Source: Candidatus Poribacteria bacterium | GTDB lineage: Bacteria > Poribacteria > WGA-4E > WGA-3G | Assembly (NCBI GenBank): GCA_026706025.1 | Contig: JAPOZO010000069.1 | Span: 1 to 44,232, forward strand | Length of the DNA stretch: 44,232 bases | Direction: 5' to 3' | Shown: piece by piece, positions 2,954-41,957 of the stretch | Layout of the letters: each line of letters opens with the position of its first letter | Position numbering within the stretch: position 1 is the first letter of the stretch | The notes under the pieces: generated by a model | What the model saw: only the letters and a program-made list of their open reading frames with translations | The model's database searches: none | What the model was told of the DNA's origin: nothing | Translations under genes and position numbers: made by a program

Positions 2954-4618
2954 ATGAAAAACGACGATGTCGAACTGATCCAACGCGTCCTTGCAGGCGA
3001 TGAGAACGCGTTCTCTGTGATTGTGAGAAAATACCAGAAGCCGGTTCACGCACTTGTGTGGCGGAAAGTCGGAGATTTCCACATCGCTGAAGAGATTACG
3101 CAGGACGCTTTCCTGAAAGCATATAAGGAGTTGGCAACGTTGAAGAAACCGCACCGCTTTGCCCGTTGGCTGTCTGTAATCGCGACACGGGGCTGTATTG
3201 CATGGCTGCGTAAAAAGCGTTTGTCCACACAGTCGCTGGAACACACAAGCCATGCGCAATTGGAACAAGCAACGTATTCGGGGTACGTGATTCAGGAGAA
3301 CGAGCAAATGACAGCAGAAGCGCAGCGCGAGGTCGTTGAAAAATTGCTTTCCAAATTACGGGAGAATGAACGGACCGTTATCACGCTCCATTACTTTGCA
3401 GAAATGACGCATGAAGAGATCAGTGAGTTTTTAGGGACATCGGTGGGCACGATTAAAAGTCGGCTCCGTCGTGCGCAGCAGCGTTTGAAGAGAGAAGAAC
3501 CGATGGTTCGAGAGGCTTTAAGCGGTTTCCAAATCGCGCCGAATTTCACTGAGAATATCATGAGGGAGGTTTCGCGTATCACGCCTACGCCGTCTACCGG
3601 TGGAAGTCAAAGGTTTGCACCGTGGGCAATCACTGCATCTATTCTGGTTGCAGCATTATTGGTGTTAGGCATCGGGTATCACTACTTCAAACGTTTCGGG
3701 TTGTCCTCTGACTCCGCAGATTCTCTCGCAGCGACAGCACCGAAAACCGGAAAAGTCGTTTTTGCCTCTAACCGAGATGGCAATTGGGATATCTGGACGA
3801 TGAATCCAGACGGAAGTGATCCTGTGAATCTTACAGGAGATGTGGCAAGTGACTTTAAGCCAACTTGGTCTCCAACAGGCGAACAGATTCTGTTCGTCTC
3901 CTTCCGAGAAGGCGGTGAAAGTCTATATCTCATGGATGCCGATGGAAGCAATATACGGCGTGTGTTTGATAATTGGCACAGTAGATCTGACGCGACGTGG
4001 GCACCTGACGGAAAACGAATTGCATCTGTGAGCGATAGCGTGCTCTATATTATAACAATAGATAGCAAATCAGTTGCGCCAGTGGCACAGACGGGCTTTG
4101 GAAGTGTTGGTGATCCCGCTTGGTCCCCGGATGGAAAGGAAATCGCCTTCATCCATTATAAGCCCAAACAGGGCTATGAACTCCGCCTTCTCAACGTTGA
4201 AACGCTCAAACAAACTGTCCTTCTCGGCGAATTAGAGAAGTATCCAGTTAAGCTTGATCCAGCGTGGTCTCCCAACGGAAAACAAATTGCCTTCGTTCTA
4301 CACAAATTCAGACCGATATTAAGTCACACAGACGCATTCGCTTGGCAGGATGAAGAAACGATTTACATTATTAACCGCGATGGGAGTAACTTACAACAAC
4401 TCGTTTCAGAGAAGGGACCCGACGCACTCCATCCGACGTGGTCCCCAGATGGCGATGAAATTATTTATCAGCAGGGAATCCATCTACCAGAAGTCGGAGA
4501 TATCCGGCAGTTTTTCAAGATTGATGTGAATAGCCGTGCCAAGACCCAACTTACACACGAGGGAGCCAATAGGGACCCAGATTGGTTTGTGTCTCCGACA
4601 TCGCCGGACGAACCTTAA
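2954..4618 (+). CDS. ECF sigma factor fused to a membrane helix and a TolB-type propeller
   Basis: 554 residues. Residues 1-90 are an ECF sigma region 2 (DFHIAEEITQDAFLKAY and the following basic RWLSVIATRGCIAWLR). Residues 120-180 are region 4, with a clear helix-turn-helix (LRENERTVITLHYFAEMTHE, then EISEFLGTSVGTIKSRLRRA). A hydrophobic segment at about 222-243 should be a single transmembrane helix. Residues 265-550 are a six-blade PD40 propeller almost identical to the exported protein at 4879. The expected topology is sigma inside, propeller outside, so signal sensing and promoter selection sit in one chain; no separate anti-sigma gene is adjacent. The C-terminus is DWFVSPTSPDEP and lacks the LLTTxWxKLKQ tail of its exported paralogues. 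The start at 2954 has GGAGATGACCG upstream. Target genes unknown. Confidence 0.88.
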   Translation: MKNDDVELIQRVLAGDENAFSVIVRKYQKPVHALVWRKVGDFHIAEEITQDAFLKAYKELATLKKPHRFARWLSVIATRGCIAWLRKKRLSTQSLEHTSHAQLEQATYSGYVIQENEQMTAEAQREVVEKLLSKLRENERTVITLHYFAEMTHEEISEFLGTSVGTIKSRLRRAQQRLKREEPMVREALSGFQIAPNFTENIMREVSRITPTPSTGGSQRFAPWAITASILVAALLVLGIGYHYFKRFGLSSDSADSLAATAPKTGKVVFASNRDGNWDIWTMNPDGSDPVNLTGDVASDFKPTWSPTGEQILFVSFREGGESLYLMDADGSNIRRVFDNWHSRSDATWAPDGKRIASVSDSVLYIITIDSKSVAPVAQTGFGSVGDPAWSPDGKEIAFIHYKPKQGYELRLLNVETLKQTVLLGELEKYPVKLDPAWSPNGKQIAFVLHKFRPILSHTDAFAWQDEETIYIINRDGSNLQQLVSEKGPDALHPTWSPDGDEIIYQQGIHLPEVGDIRQFFKIDVNSRAKTQLTHEGANRDPDWFVSPTSPDEP

Positions 4619-6048: not shown

Positions 6049-7287
6049 TCAGTCAACAGTGAACTGGATCGCATCAAAACGACGTGCGACTTTTGCGACT
6101 TTTGGTTTGAGTTCTTCAGGGGTACCGCCAGAGAGTGCAGAGACAATACACTCTGCGATGTCTGGTGCGTCTTCTGGTGTCATGCCCCATCGGGTGACCT
6201 CCTGAACACCGATACGCAATCCGGATGTTCCGACTTCCGGCGATAATCCCGCCGCCCCCGTAATAATATGGCACGCTTCGAGATGGTTTGCGAGCGCGCT
6301 GCCTTCCCCATACTTATCTACAATCAGTATCAAGGTATGCGATTCTGTGAAGCCGAGATCGGCACCGAGCATTGGAACACCGCGTTCGGCTAACGCTTGA
6401 CCGAGTGCTTTTGCGTTCGCTACAATCGCGTCTGCCTGTGCTTCACCGCATTCCATCCACTCTATAAACGTTCCTGCTAACGCCGGTAACCGATTCAGAT
6501 GGTGATTGCTCATCAACAACGGATAGACACCCCGCGCAACCCGCTCAGCAATAGATTCATCGTTCATCAAAACCATCCCACCCTGCGGTCCCGCAAGCGT
6601 CTTATGCGTGCTGGAAATAATCACATCCGCGCTTTCTTCAAACGGCGATTGAAACCGCTTACCCGCGATGAGTCCAATGACGTGTGAAGCATCGTAGATG
6701 AGGTAGGAATCAGGATTCGCTTGGCGCATTGCTTCTTTCAACTCACGCACGGGTTGCGGGAAGAGAAACACACCAGAGCCGACGTTGACGATTCTCGGTT
6801 TGTGTTTCGCAATTAGTTCAAGCGTTGCATCCAGATCAATGTTTGAACGCTGTCCGTCCCAGGGAATCGGAATGGATTGGAGTCCTATCTTGAGCGGTGA
6901 GGAGAGTAGTTTCTCGGCATAGTGGTGTCCATTATGGACCTCTAATGCTGTATCGCCCGGCTTTGCTAACGCGAACGTCGTTGCAATCCCTGCGATGTTC
7001 CCTGATAATGGGCGGAAATCGACATGTGCTGCGCCGAAAAGCTCCTTAGCTAACGCCTGTGTGTATCCCTCTATTTCGGCAATATAGCGGTTGCCCTTGT
7101 AATTCCGTTGATAAATGTCAACTCCAGAATAATTCCCATACCGCCGTGCCAACCGTTCGTCAAAAAGTTCTTCAACCAACGGTGAAGGTGTGTTCTCCGA
7201 AGCGATGAGATTGAGACAGGTGTCCCGATATGTTTGATGTTTATCGAGAAGTGAAGTGAGTTTTTGGACTTTCGCGTTATGTGTCAT
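6049..7287 (-). CDS. serine hydroxymethyltransferase-like PLP enzyme
   Basis: 412 residues from the ATG at 7287, which has GGAGG about 10 bases upstream; a longer frame starting 18 codons earlier adds an unlikely N-terminus. Fold type I PLP enzyme of the SHMT family: NLIASENTPSP near the N-terminus, GNYSGVDIYQRNYKGNRYI, and the PLP lysine K229 in SSTHKTLAGPQGG. Canonical SHMT interconverts serine and glycine with tetrahydrofolate. Here the usual SHGGHLTHG segment is replaced by HNGHHYAEK (118-126) and the family's THKTLRGPRGG is THKTLAGPQGG. It may therefore be a divergent SHMT or a related aldolase/transaldolase, so no gene symbol is given. It is divergent from the enolase-superfamily gene at 7415 and shares a 127-bp promoter region with it. 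Confidence 0.8.
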   Translation of the reverse strand: MTHNAKVQKLTSLLDKHQTYRDTCLNLIASENTPSPLVEELFDERLARRYGNYSGVDIYQRNYKGNRYIAEIEGYTQALAKELFGAAHVDFRPLSGNIAGIATTFALAKPGDTALEVHNGHHYAEKLLSSPLKIGLQSIPIPWDGQRSNIDLDATLELIAKHKPRIVNVGSGVFLFPQPVRELKEAMRQANPDSYLIYDASHVIGLIAGKRFQSPFEESADVIISSTHKTLAGPQGGMVLMNDESIAERVARGVYPLLMSNHHLNRLPALAGTFIEWMECGEAQADAIVANAKALGQALAERGVPMLGADLGFTESHTLILIVDKYGEGSALANHLEACHIITGAAGLSPEVGTSGLRIGVQEVTRWGMTPEDAPDIAECIVSALSGGTPEELKPKVAKVARRFDAIQFTVD

Positions 7288-33621: not shown

Positions 33622-36600
33622 ATGAGAACGACTTTAGTTTGGACACTGATATTATTTACATTATCACTTCTCATATTGTTACCGCACGTTGCTTTGGCAC
33701 AGACCGAACAAGGTGAGAGACCTATCGTCCACCTCGTTTATCTGAGTGGCGGTAACCCACAGCCAAATATTGATGCGAAATTGGATACATTGATAAAGGA
33801 CACACAGCAGTTCTTTGCAGACCAAATGGAAGCACACGGGTTCGAGAGAAAAACATTCTTGTATGAAACCGACGCGCATGGAAAAGCAGTCGTGCATCAT
33901 GAGCCAAAAAACTTTCCGCGACCTCATTACCTACTCTTGTTGTATGAGAGCAATGAGTTGCTGTCGTTCGCCGGGTTACACACTTGTGGTGTCGCCTGGG
34001 TACCCGGAGACGCGATTGGTGGAAGCGCAAACATTCCGAGTCGTTGTTTTGATGTTTACACATTTGGGCATGAGCTCGGGCACCTTTTTGGATTGGGACA
34101 CAATTTTCGCAATGATGGCTACCTGATGGCTTACGGAACACAAAACCAATTATCCTATAGTAGTGCAGAATGGTTGGACGTCCATCCGGCTTTTAACACC
34201 GGTGGATACTTCACCAATAGGAACACAACGATTAAAATGCTGCCCCCCAGCCTTGTATCCCCCAGCAATGCGATCCGCCTCCGCTTTGAAGTAACCGATC
34301 CGGAGGGTCTGCATCAAGCACAATTAACATCAAGGGCAATTAATAGATTCCCTAGATTTCCTGCACTGATCGATTATGAGGGATTAAATGGAAGCACAGA
34401 CAGCACACTTGAATTTATCATCCCAGATCCGACAATTTTCACTGGAAATGCGTTTGACGTAAACCTTGATGTTATTGATATGCAGGGAAACATTTTCCTG
34501 GGTTCTACGTATGCTACGTATCGGGTTAACACGACTCTTCTGTTGCCACCCTCCGAGGTTCCGTCAAGTTTGGACTCACATTCGGAAGTACACGTGCAAC
34601 ATAGAATTGGTCAGATACGTCCGCAGTACACAACATGGAATTTACCCGAAGGTGCCATAGCGCGTCTGGGTAAAGGTGGCATTAATCAAGTCGCGTATTC
34701 ACCGGACGGTAGACGTTTGGCAGTTGCGAATTCTGCCGGTATTTTGCTCTATGATACACAAACTTATCAAGAAGTCTCTTTTTTCACTGACACTGGCCAC
34801 GGGACCGTGGGCTATAGTGTCTCGTTTAGTCCGGATGGGAAGACCCTCGCAAGCGCGGACTATAACTCCATCAGTCTATGGCATGTTGAGACGGGACAAC
34901 GCCTTCGGACCCTCACCGTGCCTGACCTAATAGCCACTTATGTCGCTTTTAGTCCGGGTGGGAAGACCCTCGCAAGCATCGGAAGTGATATCTATCTGTG
35001 GGATGTAGACACTGGAAATCTCCTCCATACCCTCGTGCTGAAGGACATGGTTCATTTGAATCTTATCCAAGGTGCTGTGCCTGCTCATGTTGTATTTAGT
35101 CCGGATGGGCAGACACTTGCAAGTACAAGTATTGGCAAGATTCTCCAGTTATGGGATGTTGAAACAGGGGATCTCCTTCACACGCTTGAACATGAAAGTT
35201 ATTTTACGGATGTCGCCTTCAGCCCGGATGGAAAGACGATCGCAAGCGCGATTGCAGGTCGGCATAGTGATATCTTATATTTTTGGGATGTTGAAACCGG
35301 ACAACGCCTCCGCCCCTTCACCGAACATGGATATGATATCAACAGTATCGCCTTCAGCCCGGATGGAAAGACACTCGCCATTGGAAGCCGTTATACTATA
35401 CGTGGAAATGATGGTGGGGATCTCACTTTATGGGATCTTGACACCGGAACGCTCCTTCACACACTTGTCGGGCATAGTTATTATATCCTGGATGTTGCCT
35501 TCAGTCCGGATGGACAGACGCTCACAAGCGCGAGTGGAGAGGGCACCTTACGTTTTTGGAATGTTGAGACCGGACAACTCCTCCACACCTTAGACGACCA
35601 TACAAATAATATCAATGATGTCGCCTTCAGCCCGGATGGACAGATGTTAGCAACCGCGAGTGGAGACAGCGACGGTCACGCCGGCACTGCCCCCACCATC
35701 CGTTTATGGGATCTTAGTACACGCAGCATCCTCTATACGATGACAGGCCATCCTTTTCATTCTGTCGCTTTCAGTCCGGATGGACAGATGTTAGCAAGTG
35801 GCAGTCACGACGGGGCTATCGGTTTATGGGACGTCAACACAGGCAGACTGCTCCGCACTCTCACAGGACATGCCCACACTGTCGCCAAAACATTGTTTTC
35901 TCCGGACGGACAGATACTCGCAAGTGGCAGTCACGACGGGGCTATCGGTTTATGGGACATCAACACAGGCAGACTGCTCCGCGCACTCCAACATACGCTT
36001 CCTGTAGTTGATATAAGTTTTAACCGTGATGGGTCGATGCTCGCAAGCCTGAGTTCTCAAACCCACTCCAACGTTGACAACATCATTTTATGGGATGTTG
36101 ACACGGGCAACCGTCTGGATCCTGCCATGGGTATAGGTTCGTCCTTTCAGATGGACCTCAGTCCCGATGGCAAAACACTCGCTGCCTCCGGATTCTCTCG
36201 AATTCACTTGTGGGATGTTGAGACGCGCAGCATCCGCCACACCTTCAGGGACAGGGAGCTGACCTTCATGGATGTAGCCTTTAGTCCCGATGGCAAAACA
36301 CTCGCTGCCCTGGTATCTCCTGACCCGTTCAAGGGAGGGTTGCCTTACATCCAGTTCTGGGATGTTGAGACGCGCAGCAGCCTCCGCACACTCACAGGAC
36401 ATAACTTCGGTCACGGATTTCACGGGGGTGCGTCCATTGCTTTCAGTCCGGATGGACAGACGCTTGCCAGCGCAAGTCGTGATAACACCGTCCTGCTGTG
36501 GGACCTTGCTCCCACGCCACCAGAACCAGCGCGCGTCACGGCAGATGTCAATGGGGATGGTGAAGTCAACATCCAAGACCTCGTCGCCGTCGCCGCAGCA

Positions 36601-37149
36601 ATCGGAGAAACTGACGAAAATGATGCCGATGTTAATGGGGATGGTGAAGTCAACATCCAAGACCTCGTCGCCGTCGCTGCAGCATTGGGTGAAGTCGCAG
36701 CGGCACCTGCTGCCCTGCGGCAAGAAGGCGCATCGCACCTAACACAAGAAGACGTGCAGCACTGGATCACTCAAGCACGGCAGTTAAATTTGACAGATGC
36801 GAGGACACAACTGGGCATTCTCTTCTTGGAGCAGCTGCTATCTGCAATGATACCGAAAGAGACGGCACTTTTGCCGAACTACCCGAACCCGTTCAACCCA
36901 GAGACGTGGATTCCGTATCAATTGGCAACCCCTGCGGATGTGAAACTGACGATATACGACATCCAAGGACGCGTCGTGCGAGATTTGGACTTAGGACATC
37001 AGCGTGCTGGGATGTATCAGAGCAAAAGCCGTGCGGCGTATTGGGATGGTAAGAATGCTGTCGGTGAACCCGTCGCAAGCGGTGTCTATTTCTATACGCT
37101 CACCGCTGGCGATTTCACTGCCACGCGGAAACTCCTGATACGGAAATAG
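33622..37149 (+). CDS. exported metzincin-type metalloprotease fused to WD40, dockerin and sorting domains
   Basis: 1175 residues. Signal peptide ends near ALA-QTEQ. Residues 30-200 are a metalloprotease domain with the full zinc motif H150-E-L-G-H-L-F-G-L-G-H160 and a downstream Met-turn (GYLM169AYG), so a metzincin. Residues about 205-300 are beta-rich linker. From 338 (WNLPEGAIARLGKGGINQVA) about 14 WD40 blades with SPDG and LWDV motifs run to 970. Two dockerin-like calcium repeats (DVNGDGEVNIQDL twice, 973-1026) and the sorting domain (1086-1175, LLPNYPNPFNPETW ... RKLLIRK) follow. Probably a surface-anchored protease with a large binding platform. Two blades at 35765-35990 are 126-bp near-identical copies. 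The ATG has AAAAAGGAG upstream. Confidence 0.87.
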   Translation: MRTTLVWTLILFTLSLLILLPHVALAQTEQGERPIVHLVYLSGGNPQPNIDAKLDTLIKDTQQFFADQMEAHGFERKTFLYETDAHGKAVVHHEPKNFPRPHYLLLLYESNELLSFAGLHTCGVAWVPGDAIGGSANIPSRCFDVYTFGHELGHLFGLGHNFRNDGYLMAYGTQNQLSYSSAEWLDVHPAFNTGGYFTNRNTTIKMLPPSLVSPSNAIRLRFEVTDPEGLHQAQLTSRAINRFPRFPALIDYEGLNGSTDSTLEFIIPDPTIFTGNAFDVNLDVIDMQGNIFLGSTYATYRVNTTLLLPPSEVPSSLDSHSEVHVQHRIGQIRPQYTTWNLPEGAIARLGKGGINQVAYSPDGRRLAVANSAGILLYDTQTYQEVSFFTDTGHGTVGYSVSFSPDGKTLASADYNSISLWHVETGQRLRTLTVPDLIATYVAFSPGGKTLASIGSDIYLWDVDTGNLLHTLVLKDMVHLNLIQGAVPAHVVFSPDGQTLASTSIGKILQLWDVETGDLLHTLEHESYFTDVAFSPDGKTIASAIAGRHSDILYFWDVETGQRLRPFTEHGYDINSIAFSPDGKTLAIGSRYTIRGNDGGDLTLWDLDTGTLLHTLVGHSYYILDVAFSPDGQTLTSASGEGTLRFWNVETGQLLHTLDDHTNNINDVAFSPDGQMLATASGDSDGHAGTAPTIRLWDLSTRSILYTMTGHPFHSVAFSPDGQMLASGSHDGAIGLWDVNTGRLLRTLTGHAHTVAKTLFSPDGQILASGSHDGAIGLWDINTGRLLRALQHTLPVVDISFNRDGSMLASLSSQTHSNVDNIILWDVDTGNRLDPAMGIGSSFQMDLSPDGKTLAASGFSRIHLWDVETRSIRHTFRDRELTFMDVAFSPDGKTLAALVSPDPFKGGLPYIQFWDVETRSSLRTLTGHNFGHGFHGGASIAFSPDGQTLASASRDNTVLLWDLAPTPPEPARVTADVNGDGEVNIQDLVAVAAAIGETDENDADVNGDGEVNIQDLVAVAAALGEVAAAPAALRQEGASHLTQEDVQHWITQARQLNLTDARTQLGILFLEQLLSAMIPKETALLPNYPNPFNPETWIPYQLATPADVKLTIYDIQGRVVRDLDLGHQRAGMYQSKSRAAYWDGKNAVGEPVASGVYFYTLTAGDFTATRKLLIRK

Positions 37150-37228: not shown

Positions 37229-39916
37229 ATGAAAACGACTTGGGTTTGGACACTGATACTGTTCGCATTTTCACTTTTCATATTATTACCGCACACCGCT
37301 GCGGTAGATACAACGAAATGGGGGCTACCCGAAGGTGCGAAACTCCGTATCGGCAAGGGCTATATTTATGGCATGGCCTATTCTGCTGATGGTACAAAGT
37401 TAGCCGTCCGGAGCAGTGTCGGTGTTCGGCTTTACGACGCGGAGACAGGTGAAGCACTTGACCTACTCACCCCGGATGAGCAGGTGCCCAGTAGCGTAGC
37501 GTTCAGCCCAAATGCCTCCATTCTTGCATTGGGGATTGGGCGAGAAATCCGTCTACTGGATGTCGAGACGGGTAGCCTTCTGCGAACCCTCACTGGGCAT
37601 ACGGAGCAGGTTGATGATAGCATAGCGTTCAGTCCCGATGGAACCACGCTTGCATCGGGAAGTTATGATAGGACGATCCGTGTGTGGGATGTGAACACAG
37701 GCAAAGAACTTGCCCAGCTCAGCGGGTATATCCCTCTGGTCCCTAGCATCCATGGCGGCCGGTTAGCGTTCAGTGCCGATGGAGTTATGATCGCATCGGG
37801 AATTGGTCATGGAACCATCCGTGTGTGGGATGCCGAGACGGGGAGCCTGCTGCGAACCCTCACTGGGCATACAAGCGCGGTTGGGAGCGTAGCGTTCAGT
37901 CCCCATGGAACCACTCTTGCCTCGGGGAGTTATGATGATACTGTCCGTGTATGGGATGCCGAGACGGGGAGCCTGCTGCGAACCCTCACTGGGCACATGA
38001 GTTCGGTCACGGGCGTAGCGTTTAGTCCCGATGGCAATATCATCGCATCCGCGAGTGATAATGCTGCTGTTCGTCTATGGGATGCTGAGACGGGGGAAGT
38101 CGTCTGGCCGCCATACCCCACAGGGGGTTATGTGAACTTTTTCAACGTTCCTGAAGGGTATGCGTATGGTGTAACGTTCAGTCCGGATGGAGGGACGCTC
38201 GCAATCCGAGGGTGGTACAGCACTATCCATCTGTGGGATTTGGATACGGGGAGTCTGGTAACCAGTTCCACCGATATCTCTGGTGGGCGTTTCATCAGAA
38301 TCATACCGGATGCGGATAGTAGCCCGCGAACGCTCATAGACCATAGCCCACTGGGGGGGGAAAAAATAGTATTCAGTCCGGATGGAACCCTTCTGGCAGA
38401 ATTGGGGACAAAAAAAATAATATTCAGTCCGGATGGAACCCTTCTGGAAGAATCAGGAGCGGGGAGAGGAACGGTCGTTCTGCGAGACGCTAAGACCGGT
38501 AACTACCTACGAAGCTTTACACCACCCACCAATGTCGAGGCCATAGCATTCAGTCCGGATGGAACTCTTCTGGCATTAGGGAGTAGAGGTGCTGGTACCC
38601 TCTATCTGTGGGACCTAAGAACAGATGAACTGCAAGTCTTAGGAAAACATGAACATTACATCAATAGCGTAGCATTCAGTCCGGACGGAACTCTGATCGC
38701 TTCAGCGGGTTATCATGATCACTCCGTCCATCTGTGGGATGTGGAGACAGGAAGCCTCCGGCACACCCTCAGAGTGGATTACCTTCTAGGCTCTGAGAGC
38801 GTAGCGTTCAGTCCAGATAGCACTATGATCGCTTTGACGGATGGTAAAGATGCCGTTCTGTGGGATGTGAAGACGGGCCAATCTCTAAGAAGATTCACGG
38901 GGCATAGTCATTTTGTTAAGAGTGTTGCGTTCAGGCCGGATGGCAACACACTCGCTACAGGAAGTGTAGATAGTACCGCCCGTGTATGGGATGTACAAAC
39001 AGGAAAAGAACTTGCTCTGCTCACAGGCACAGGAAATACGTGGGCTGGATTCGGCGTATTGGTAGCGTTCAGTCCGGATGGCGACTTTCTCGCTACGGGA
39101 GGGGAACACGATGATAGCGTCCATCTGTGGTATGTCGGGATGTGGAATAAGTTCAAAACTTTCAAAGGTGCGGGGCACGTCAGAGATATAGCATTCAGTC
39201 CGGATGGTAGCACCCTCGCTACGATCAGAGATGCGGATTCCGTTATTATTTTCTGGGAGGTTGTACCTACACCGACTCCGGATGCTGATGAGTTCCCTCA
39301 ATTATCAGCGGATGTTAACGGTGATGGTGAAGTCAATATCCAAGACCTTGTCGCCGTCGCTGCAGCATTAGGTGAAGTCGGTGAAAACGCTGCGGATGTC
39401 AATGGCGATGGTGAAGTCAACATACAAGACCTCGTCGCCGTCGCTGCAGCAATCGGAGAAGTCGCAGCGGCACCTGCTGTTCTGCGTCAACAAGGCGCAG
39501 CGCACCTCACACAGGAAGACGTGCAGCACTGGATTACACAGGCACAGCAGGCAAACCTCACGGATGCAACTTCTGTCCGAGGGATCCGCTTCCTGGCGCA
39601 GCTACTCGCAGCATTCACGCCAAAAGAGACGGCATTGTTAGCAAACTATCCGAACCCATTCAACCCAGAGACGTGGATTCCGTATCAATTGGCAACCCCT
39701 GCGGATGTGACACTAACAATATACGACATCCAAGGACGCGTCGTGCGAGATTTGGATTTAGGGCATCAACGCGCGGGGATGTATCAGAGCAAAAGCCGTG
39801 CGGCGTATTGGGATGGCAGGAACGCACAAGGTGAGTCGGTCGTAAGTGGCGTGTATTTCTACACCCTCACCGCAGGCGAATTTACTGCGACGCGTAAGAT
39901 GTTGATAGCGAAGTAA
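37229..39916 (+). CDS. exported WD40-dockerin-sorting domain protein
   Basis: 895 residues; signal peptide ends near TAA-VDTT. The protein enters with WGLPEGAKLRIGKGYIYGMA, then about 14 WD40 blades to residue 680 (FSPDGTTLASGSYDRTIRVW, FSPHGTTLASGSYDDTVRVW). Dockerin-like repeats (DVNGDGEVNIQDL twice) lie at 694-744 and the sorting domain at 804-895, ending RKMLIAK. It is the metzincin gene's neighbour without the protease part, with the same leader and closely matching 3' end. Two blades around 37820-38010 are 126-bp near-identical units, and 38371-38450 shows a 51-bp partial blade duplication (FSPDGTLLAE, FSPDGTLLEE). Expected to be a surface-exposed binding platform; the ligand is unknown. 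Confidence 0.86.
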   Translation: MKTTWVWTLILFAFSLFILLPHTAAVDTTKWGLPEGAKLRIGKGYIYGMAYSADGTKLAVRSSVGVRLYDAETGEALDLLTPDEQVPSSVAFSPNASILALGIGREIRLLDVETGSLLRTLTGHTEQVDDSIAFSPDGTTLASGSYDRTIRVWDVNTGKELAQLSGYIPLVPSIHGGRLAFSADGVMIASGIGHGTIRVWDAETGSLLRTLTGHTSAVGSVAFSPHGTTLASGSYDDTVRVWDAETGSLLRTLTGHMSSVTGVAFSPDGNIIASASDNAAVRLWDAETGEVVWPPYPTGGYVNFFNVPEGYAYGVTFSPDGGTLAIRGWYSTIHLWDLDTGSLVTSSTDISGGRFIRIIPDADSSPRTLIDHSPLGGEKIVFSPDGTLLAELGTKKIIFSPDGTLLEESGAGRGTVVLRDAKTGNYLRSFTPPTNVEAIAFSPDGTLLALGSRGAGTLYLWDLRTDELQVLGKHEHYINSVAFSPDGTLIASAGYHDHSVHLWDVETGSLRHTLRVDYLLGSESVAFSPDSTMIALTDGKDAVLWDVKTGQSLRRFTGHSHFVKSVAFRPDGNTLATGSVDSTARVWDVQTGKELALLTGTGNTWAGFGVLVAFSPDGDFLATGGEHDDSVHLWYVGMWNKFKTFKGAGHVRDIAFSPDGSTLATIRDADSVIIFWEVVPTPTPDADEFPQLSADVNGDGEVNIQDLVAVAAALGEVGENAADVNGDGEVNIQDLVAVAAAIGEVAAAPAVLRQQGAAHLTQEDVQHWITQAQQANLTDATSVRGIRFLAQLLAAFTPKETALLANYPNPFNPETWIPYQLATPADVTLTIYDIQGRVVRDLDLGHQRAGMYQSKSRAAYWDGRNAQGESVVSGVYFYTLTAGEFTATRKMLIAK

Positions 39917-40076: not shown

Positions 40077-40802
40077 ATGAGGTTTAACAAATAAATTGGA
40101 TAGTCGCAGCTACGCAACGTGCGATGAATCGCACTACTACGAACCGATCCACTTGTTAATCATACGTCTTAGAATTACCCGATTAAATTCTTAATCTTCA
40201 TATACTATACTAACGTGAGTTTGATAAATATTTAGGGCGGAAGCATTCGTCTTAAAGTCCCCCTGATAAGGGGGATTTAGGGGGTTAAATCCCTAAAAAT
40301 TACCTCTTTTGGGGTGAATATATTGCTTTTTTGCTTAATTTGCGTCCGCTTCGGTTTCTAATACCTTTTTTCAAACTGGCGTTATACTAAACTTTGGACA
40401 ATTTTTGAGAATTCCTATGGGATTTATGTGATTACAAGATAACCTCCATGTCCGCTGAAGCGTTTGTGAGAATGCTTCCTCCAAGTTCTGAACCGTGATT
40501 GATCGGATTTATATGATTTACGAGATAAAGACAACGCAATACCTAAAGCGTTTATCACAACGAATACCTCTTTTATCATAGTAATCAGAAAAATCAGAAA
40601 AATCACAGTTCAAACACCAAGCAATATCTGAACTCTGATTGATGGGAATTTAAATGCCACTCAAACTGTCCAAACTTTAGTATACTATAGTAGATTTTGA
40701 AAGGACTTGCACACTCTTTCAGACGGGCGAGGGGACCTCACCCCTACGGTTTGCCTTCTGTAGAGCGATTTGTGTAAGTCCTATTATTAAGGAGAGAAAC
40801 CG
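40077..40802. other. long repeat-rich intergenic region
   Basis: No convincing gene. It holds the GTGCGAT/ATCGCAC dyad (from 40118), the 31-bp inverted partner of 30687-30717 (40171-40201), and a hairpin TCCCCCT-GATA-AGGGGGA (40258-40275). It also has inverted copies of a GAACxGTGATT / AATCACAGTTC repeat (around 40481-40612 and again at 40631). GGAGAG before 40803 is the ribosome binding site of the next gene. Confidence 0.6.
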
Positions 40803-41957
40803 ATGAGAAAATTGATCTGTTCATTGCTAACACTCAGTTTAACACTATCCGTTTTCGCAGCAAGTTACGCCGAAGAAGAGACGGATATTGACATCTTGAG
40901 GGCAGCTGATGTCAATGCTGATGGAACGATAAACATCCTTGATCTGGTACAGATTGCCGCGGACTTGGGCGCGACATCCACCGCAGATCAGCCTCTGAAC
41001 TCAGATGTCAACGCGGATGGTACTGTCAATATTCTTGACTTGGTGTTTGTCGCGAACCATCTTGGTGAAACTGTCAGGCCGCCTGCGGTGTTCGTCAGTG
41101 CGGACCCAGAACCTGAATCGGAGCTGGAGATTGACGATACAATCGTCCTCACTTTCGATAATACGCCAGAAGCCTTTACCACCAGCACGGGAGTCGCAAC
41201 GGTCGTTGATAACACAGTGACACTATCAGGTCCTTTTGACCCAGGGACGCTTGTCCTGGTCGTCACTTGGGCAGATGGCACACAAACACTCCGGTATACC
41301 GTTCGCGAACCTGATACTGAGCCGCCTCAGATTACGAATGTAATCGCCATGGATAGCGACGGCAACATTGAGCCGCAACCGACGCAAAACACGACACGGT
41401 TTGAAATTACGTTCAACGAACCGGTAATTGGTCAGGCTATACTCTTCACAGCAGCGGGGACTAATGTCGGTTGGTCGAGTGAAATTGAGGGCAATAAAGG
41501 GATCGTTGAACGCCGCTACGCGAAAGCACTGGAGAGTGGGTTTACCTATATTATTGAGGTGTATGCCATCGACACTGCGGGTAATGAGATCGGTTACACG
41601 ATTACGTTCCCACCTGTCGATGAGCCCCCAGAGATCCCCATTCTCGTCGACGATGAGACATTCGATACAGTTGTCCTCGAATCGGAACTCCCTGTCGTGG
41701 TTGAGTTTTATGCGGAATGGTGACCCTTCTGCCGTATGATGGAGCCAGTTGTCTCCGAAGTCGGATTAGAGAACCAAGACACCTTCACGATTGCCAGGAT
41801 CGACATTGATGAAAGTAATGAAATACCACAAAGGTATCAAATCCGAGCCACCCCAACTTATATCGTATTTCGAGATGGAGAGGTTATCGGACGTTTCACA
41901 GGAGCTATGCCGAAAGATAGGTTCCTGGAGAATATTCTTAATGCTATAGACAATTGA
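40803..41957 (+). CDS. exported dockerin-thioredoxin protein, probable selenoprotein (in-frame TGA)
   Basis: Read with TGA at 41721-41723 as residue 307, the frame gives 384 residues. Signal peptide ends near SYA-EEE. Two dockerin-like calcium repeats (DVNADGTINILDL, DVNADGTVNILDL) lie at 36-85, beta-sandwich linkers follow to about 275, then a thioredoxin domain: VVVEFYAEW-[TGA]-PFCRMMEPVVSE. In thioredoxins the W is followed by C-x-x-C; here the first Cys codon is TGA, giving U-P-F-C, while C310 is intact. The frame stays open 77 codons beyond it with the cis-Pro motif RATPTYIVFRDGEVIGRF. So either selenocysteine or a single-base nonsense mutation from TGC/TGT. GGAGAG lies seven bases before the ATG. 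It would act in the cell envelope as a thiol/selenol oxidoreductase. Confidence 0.78.
41741..41756 (+). promoter_or_regulatory. candidate SECIS-like stem-loop after the TGA
   Basis: GGAG (41741-41744), loop CCAGTTGT, CTCC (41753-41756); the loop begins 21 bases after the TGA, inside the distance known for bacterial SECIS elements. CTTC (41726-41729) and GAAG (41757-41760) could extend it with a large one-sided bulge. The loop's G is later than the usual first or second position, so the match is only partial. Confidence 0.3.

Follow-up and report, generated by a model that had tools for sequence, protein, structure and literature searches.

A thioredoxin with selenocysteine (Sec) in a UxxC motif (Trx, PF00085) is among the experimentally verified prokaryotic selenoproteins (PMC13188914, Table 1), and its occurrences include Treponema denticola and Geobacter (PMC1794560). 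U-x-x-C thioredoxin-like selenoproteins are thus established, as the preliminary description of the present locus had stated. Other selenoproteins with a thioredoxin fold are a thiol:disulfide interchange protein (PF13098, UxxC), DsbA/DsbG-like proteins and a TlpA-like protein with a UGC motif (PMC13188914, Table 1).

The window analysed here, a stretch of 44,232 nucleotides, is a single contig of a 6.27 Mb metagenome-assembled genome (MAG) of Candidatus Poribacteria, a sponge-symbiont lineage. It carries a gene whose predicted product resembles the known Sec-thioredoxin in its PF00085 domain, its in-frame UGA, the position of Sec as the first residue of the motif and the resolving Cys three residues further on. 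Thioredoxins are described as small (PMC13188914), whereas the window protein is predicted to be exported and carries, besides its thioredoxin, a dockerin, a CopC-like and an Ig-like domain, and its family has expanded to several paralogue clades within one lineage. The PF13098, DsbA/DsbG-like and TlpA-like selenoproteins are likewise Sec-based thioredoxin-fold oxidoreductases, several kinds of which are usually extracytoplasmic, but they belong to different domain families, the top match of the window protein being PF00085. As in cellulosome dockerins of type I (PF00404), two calcium-binding repeats score above the Pfam cut-off and cohesin domains occur in the genome; unlike in cellulosomes, the dockerin is joined to a redox domain rather than to a glycoside hydrolase.

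The only paper found to combine the terms selenoprotein and dockerin appears to concern carbohydrate-active enzymes. The literature search returned no paper linking Poribacteria with selenoproteins, although papers beyond its reach could exist, and a 2026 inventory of selenoproteins includes the UxxC thioredoxin and mentions neither dockerin nor Poribacteria (PMC13188914). The literature searches therefore agree with the preliminary description, which had called the domain set undescribed: the UxxC thioredoxin itself is known, but its exported fusion to a dockerin, its expansion into paralogues and the different registers of the SECIS elements appear to be undescribed.

The gene and the domains of its read-through protein

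The features of the gene are as follows.

40790-40796, plus strand: Shine-Dalgarno sequence AGGAGAG, read from the sequence, 6 nt before the start codon; the motif is also found upstream of the G060 orthologue
40803-41957, plus strand: putative Sec-thioredoxin gene; of its 384 codons, number 307 is the Sec codon, and the frame closes with TGA at 41955-41957
40803-40871, plus strand: Sec-type signal peptide (predicted) spanning residues 1-23, with cleavage close to AASYA/EEE; read from the sequence, and the AlphaFold model has a helix at the N-terminus
40905-41063, plus strand: dockerin type I, residues 35-87, repeats DVNADGTINILDL and DVNADGTVNILDL (PF00404 Dockerin_1, 2e-10, 41.1 bits against a cut-off of 22.9)
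41088-41324, plus strand: CopC-like beta-sandwich, residues 96-174 (PF04234, 4e-4, below cut-off; strands in the AlphaFold model)
41325-41612, plus strand: Ig-like beta-sandwich (Big_5-like), residues 175-270 (Big_5 matches of a paralogue and a homologue; strands in the AlphaFold model)
41646-41936, plus strand: thioredoxin domain, residues 282-378, spanning the TGA (PF00085, 9.5e-25, 87 bits against a cut-off of 23.5)
41721-41723, plus strand: UGA at the first position of U-x-x-C, taken as the codon of selenocysteine 307 (from the frame and homologue comparison)
41730-41732, plus strand: codon of the resolving Cys310, the sole Cys of the mature protein
41853-41855, plus strand: codon of cis-Pro351 of the thioredoxin fold (ATP-TY), invariant in 20 homologues

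The open reading frame from the ATG at 40803 ends at the TGA at 41721-41723, in the context FYAEW-TGA-PFCRMMEP, and past this codon the frame extends for 77 codons to the stop at 41955-41957. The preliminary description had placed the TGA at the first Cys of a C-x-x-C motif, counted 77 further codons and noted a conserved cis-Pro region, and each of these observations was reproduced. Outside the signal peptide the protein has no Cys other than Cys310, so that its mature form has just two redox residues, this one and Sec307.

The frame is conserved on both sides of the TGA. Between the window and G029 (51% overall), dN was 0.40 before the TGA, with a dS of 1.10, and 0.22 after it, where dS was saturated. 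The G060 orthologue (record JAAXHI010000494), from a separate assembly, keeps the TGA, is 94% identical over the thioredoxin domain and shows few changes before or after the TGA. As judged from the comparison with G029, the reading frame after the TGA is under protein-level constraint. The final TGA at 41955-41957 was considered as a second Sec codon and rejected; since the sequence that follows it is unconserved between the window and G060, it was taken as the true stop.

The N-terminus, MRKLICSLLTLSLTLSVFAASYA, resembles a Sec signal peptide when read by eye, as do the N-termini of many group A members (groups are defined below). The dockerin repeats that had been noticed from the letters were recovered by profile, with two repeats of the DxNxDGxxNxxDL type and a score above the Pfam cut-off. 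The PF04234 score of the window protein lies under the Pfam cut-off (21.7 against 23.3), and the domain is therefore called CopC-like only; in paralogue L050, PF04234 matches several copies at 1.8e-10. Big_5 (PF13205) gave no Pfam match in the window protein itself and was found at the matching position in paralogue L050 (7.6e-14) and homologue L113 (2.1e-6).

The thioredoxin domain is supported by both profile and fold. In the AlphaFold model its pLDDT is about 84-96 by block, and the dockerin region is of low confidence. Foldseek matched the domain to ordinary thioredoxins, including Trx1 (6esx; TM score by target, 0.92). The active site reads W-U-P-F-C, with Sec in place of Cys, and the cis-Pro is retained. 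The score for TIGR01068, the canonical thioredoxin equivalog, was 90.7 bits against a cut-off of 96.8, so the window protein was not filed as such, and none of the NCBIfam selenoprotein and Dsb models reached its cut-off on this protein.

Homologues, SECIS hairpins and the decoding machinery

Among the thioredoxin-domain matches in 85 genomes of the phylum, many contained exactly one TGA, and 89 distinct sequences were extracted from the loci. Both codon types that the preliminary description had envisaged at the site occur, TGA in 81 sequences and TGT or TGC in 8 at the same column. All 81 TGA-bearing homologues have U-x-x-C with Sec at the same column, where it is aligned with the redox Cys of group D and of L174 and L175. 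By a reading of the search results, at least one TGA-bearing thioredoxin is present in each of the 38 genomes of the genus, and further members occur in G029, G036, G039 and G047, of the same family as the genus. In the protein search, the close named relatives were MAGs of Candidatus Poribacteria, among them the orthologue of 94% identity in the thioredoxin domain; matches from other phyla are more distant, share no more than 38% identity across most of the domain and are thioredoxin relatives of a general kind.

Because the source is a metagenome assembly, an error that replaced TGC or TGT was considered. The TGA recurs in many separately assembled MAGs, including the single-contig genomes G080, G082, G083 and G084, and its presence in separate assemblies and in 81 distinct homologues indicates that it is due neither to chance nor to sequencing error; the probability of such an error is negligible.

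A tree of 112 columns recovered four groups, the deep forks being uncertain because of this small number of columns. Lipoprotein assignments were read from lipobox-like sequences.

Group A (window type): signal peptide, dockerin, beta domains, Trx
Group B: signal peptide, dockerin, Trx; FKSEF-U-IYC or FKDDT-U
Group C: short, lipoprotein-like, W-U-G-F-C
Group D: lipoprotein-like, Cys instead of Sec

Besides the window copy, the window's genome has a tandem of B and A genes on contig C59, and a C gene and a Cys-bearing D gene on C65. At L050 (3886-6738), two tandem Sec-thioredoxin genes lie behind URO-D and beta-lactamase-like genes; the first is a short signal-peptide/dockerin/Trx gene with its TGA at 4390, and the second encodes 691 residues with several CopC-like repeats and has its TGA at 6496. 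Short lipoprotein-like Sec-thioredoxins with W-U-G-F-C were seen at L091 (3248-3250), L100 (2914-2916) and L103 (4306-4308), near an RtcB-like gene as judged by eye; the distance between their UGA and SECIS exceeds that of the window family by 12 nt.

Two SECIS features were assigned downstream of the UGA.

41741-41756, plus strand: SECIS core hairpin GGAGCC-AGUU-GUCUCC, apical loop at 41747-41750, 23 nt from the UGA (comparative)
41731-41766, plus strand: extended SECIS fold with a lower helix, -9.4 kcal/mol

The core alone folds at -4.7 kcal/mol and falls within 41724-41765, the interval in which a search for a SECIS had been proposed. In 34 group A sequences, aligned by gapless codons after the UGA, columns 21-26 pair with columns 31-36, and the AGUU-loop hairpin is kept in all 34. 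Four of the six pairs are invariant, the fifth is mostly C x U, and the third covaries (C-G in 21 sequences, U-G in 7, U-A in 3, A-U in 2 and one mismatch). RNAalifold recovered the stem independently. At the fourfold codons +7 to +11 the third-base entropy is zero, and it is 0.8-1.55 bits at the other downstream fourfold codons; this freeze at five codons indicates a constraint on the RNA and not on the protein.

In the published model of the bacterial SECIS, the loop has 3-9 nt with a G in its first two positions, the stem has 4-16 bp, the distance from the UGA is 16-37 nt and the minimum free energy is at most -7.5 kcal/mol (PMC13188914). The window hairpin agrees with the model on all four counts, with its AGUU loop, its stem with one mismatch, its distance of 23 nt and the -9.4 kcal/mol reached with the lower helix; not every group A member attains -7.5 kcal/mol. 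A single-sequence fold of 61 nt was no more stable than shuffles (z -0.74) and Rfam gave no SECIS match, so the element rests on the comparison of homologues.

Group B has a GGU-loop hairpin at nearly the same place, with an alternative pairing in some members. The hairpin of group C, GAUGC-AGUU-GCAUC, lies 12 nt farther downstream and includes one compensated change of U-A to G-C. The distance from apical loop to UGA is accordingly 23 nt in group A and most of group B, and 35 nt in group C. The group C stem is broken in its sister, the Cys clade D, and the Cys members related to group B have no hairpins.

Standard gene calling yields exactly a 306-residue and a 73-residue open reading frame, as would be expected if the TGA were an ordinary stop after a dockerin/Ig protein, followed by a relic or a separate gene from the ATG at 41736. 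The 73-residue product would, however, have no active site, and its thioredoxin fold would start only after the N-terminal third. The TGA at the catalytic column of 81 distinct homologues, the protein-level constraint downstream of it, the conserved SECIS and the existence of Cys versions of the same thioredoxin domain also argue against termination, which is very improbable.

The machinery for Sec insertion, which the preliminary description had named among the checks to be made, is fully encoded in the window's genome: a tRNA-Sec with anticodon TCA (78.1 bits), an adjoining selB (352.8 bits), selA (604 bits, above cut-off) and selD (359.8 bits). The selD gene (G000, contig C56, 238667-239590, minus strand) has its own in-frame TGA in KCAGUASKLAPGEL (CAGU), at the catalytic position, which is the known site of Sec in SelD. 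To judge by this motif, the SelD of this genome is itself a selenoprotein, and as a second, textbook case it supports Sec decoding there. Across the phylum, selA is present in 72 of the 85 genomes. In the drafts G061 and G062, both with the Sec-thioredoxin family, no match to selA or tRNA-Sec was found; selB is above cut-off in G062. In a 2017 metagenome study, SelA and SelB co-occurred in most sponge-symbiont bins and were absent from most references (PMC5649159).

Reassignment of UGA throughout the genome, or its reading as Trp or Cys by another tRNA, is extremely improbable. No evidence for genome-wide reassignment was found, and the Sec-thioredoxin gene itself terminates at TGA. The tRNA-Sec carries the TCA anticodon with selB alongside, and the UGA sites studied stand at redox-active positions, those of the thioredoxins being followed by SECIS hairpins. 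The original suggestion of a likely selenoprotein is thus supported by machinery, homologues and SECIS together.

Proposed function and evolution of the family

That the gene is a genuine selenoprotein gene and that its product is an exported oxidoreductase are, taken jointly, highly probable from the sequences. In the proposed mechanism, the UGA at 41721-41723 would be decoded as Sec by SelB and tRNA-Sec, directed by the hairpin 23 nt downstream, and the protein would leave the cytoplasm. Sec307 would attack, and Cys310 would resolve, and the substrate would be an extracytoplasmic disulfide or another oxidised thiol. The protein would thus be an extracytoplasmic thiol-disulfide oxidoreductase, most likely a reductase or isomerase.

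The window's genome encodes a complete DsbD and has 25 cohesin-domain matches, of which one falls slightly short of the curated cut-off. Judging from this gene content, the most likely electron donor would be the membrane protein DsbD, and the dockerin would most likely clip the protein onto cohesin-bearing surface proteins, the cohesin-domain proteins of this genome being possible candidates for its partners. Docking and DsbD coupling, considered by themselves, have about an even chance of being correct.

The x-x residues of U-x-x-C, which tune the redox potential of the active site, differ widely among the paralogues (PF, PS, IY, GF and GA). This variation would suit a protein that contains Sec but acts as a peroxidase-type scavenger of oxidants or as an oxidase of exported proteins, with the dockerin serving calcium-dependent folding or binding a partner other than cohesin. 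Reducing thioredoxins make up most of the best matches by fold and by sequence, and both DsbD and the cohesin-domain matches are present, which makes this alternative unlikely, if still a serious one, beside the reductase or isomerase reading.

Group A and B genes share a recurring neighbourhood of beta-lactamase-like, URO-D, Sec-Trx and BatA-like genes, and it does not point to a substrate. The window copy is located outside this neighbourhood and follows a WD40-dockerin gene. Upstream of the Sec-thioredoxin gene, 33622-37149 and 37229-39916 each encode a large WD40-repeat protein that also has dockerin repeats and, at its C-terminus, a region resembling the sorting domain of type 9 secretion (YPNPFNPETWIPYQL...).

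In the tree with Cys outgroups, groups C and D were placed apart from A and B, with support of 92/87, which is not strong, and the Cys genes of genus g2 were placed beside group B. The latter, L174 and L175, are TGC versions of the dockerin-type B family, and tRNA-Sec is present in the genomes concerned, G027 and G028; on their sequences, they are a Sec/Cys exchange inside a Sec-decoding lineage. Separate origins of Sec are hinted at because the SECIS registers differ, group C has a Cys clade as its sister, and Cys members stand beside group B. The tree and the registers suggest that the family switched between Cys and Sec more than once, in one direction or the other.

A wider picture can be offered tentatively, and it is somewhat more doubtful than probable: Poribacterial sponge symbionts may possess an extracytoplasmic redox system based on selenium and made up of several paralogous Sec-thioredoxins. 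Some of these would be held by their dockerins on surface proteins with cohesins and others anchored by lipid, and Sec would have had more than one origin among them.

When the TGA is read as a stop, as in standard annotation, the genes of this family are truncated at the active site and the catalytic domain is hidden; at least four genes in the window's genome and at least one in each genome of the genus are affected. The family provides a natural series of Sec and Cys paralogues with different SECIS types in one group of organisms, in which it can be tested directly how SECIS elements are gained, lost and relocated. It would also widen the range of selenoproteins, which in uncultured sponge symbionts would include a form that is exported and may be attached to a scaffold.
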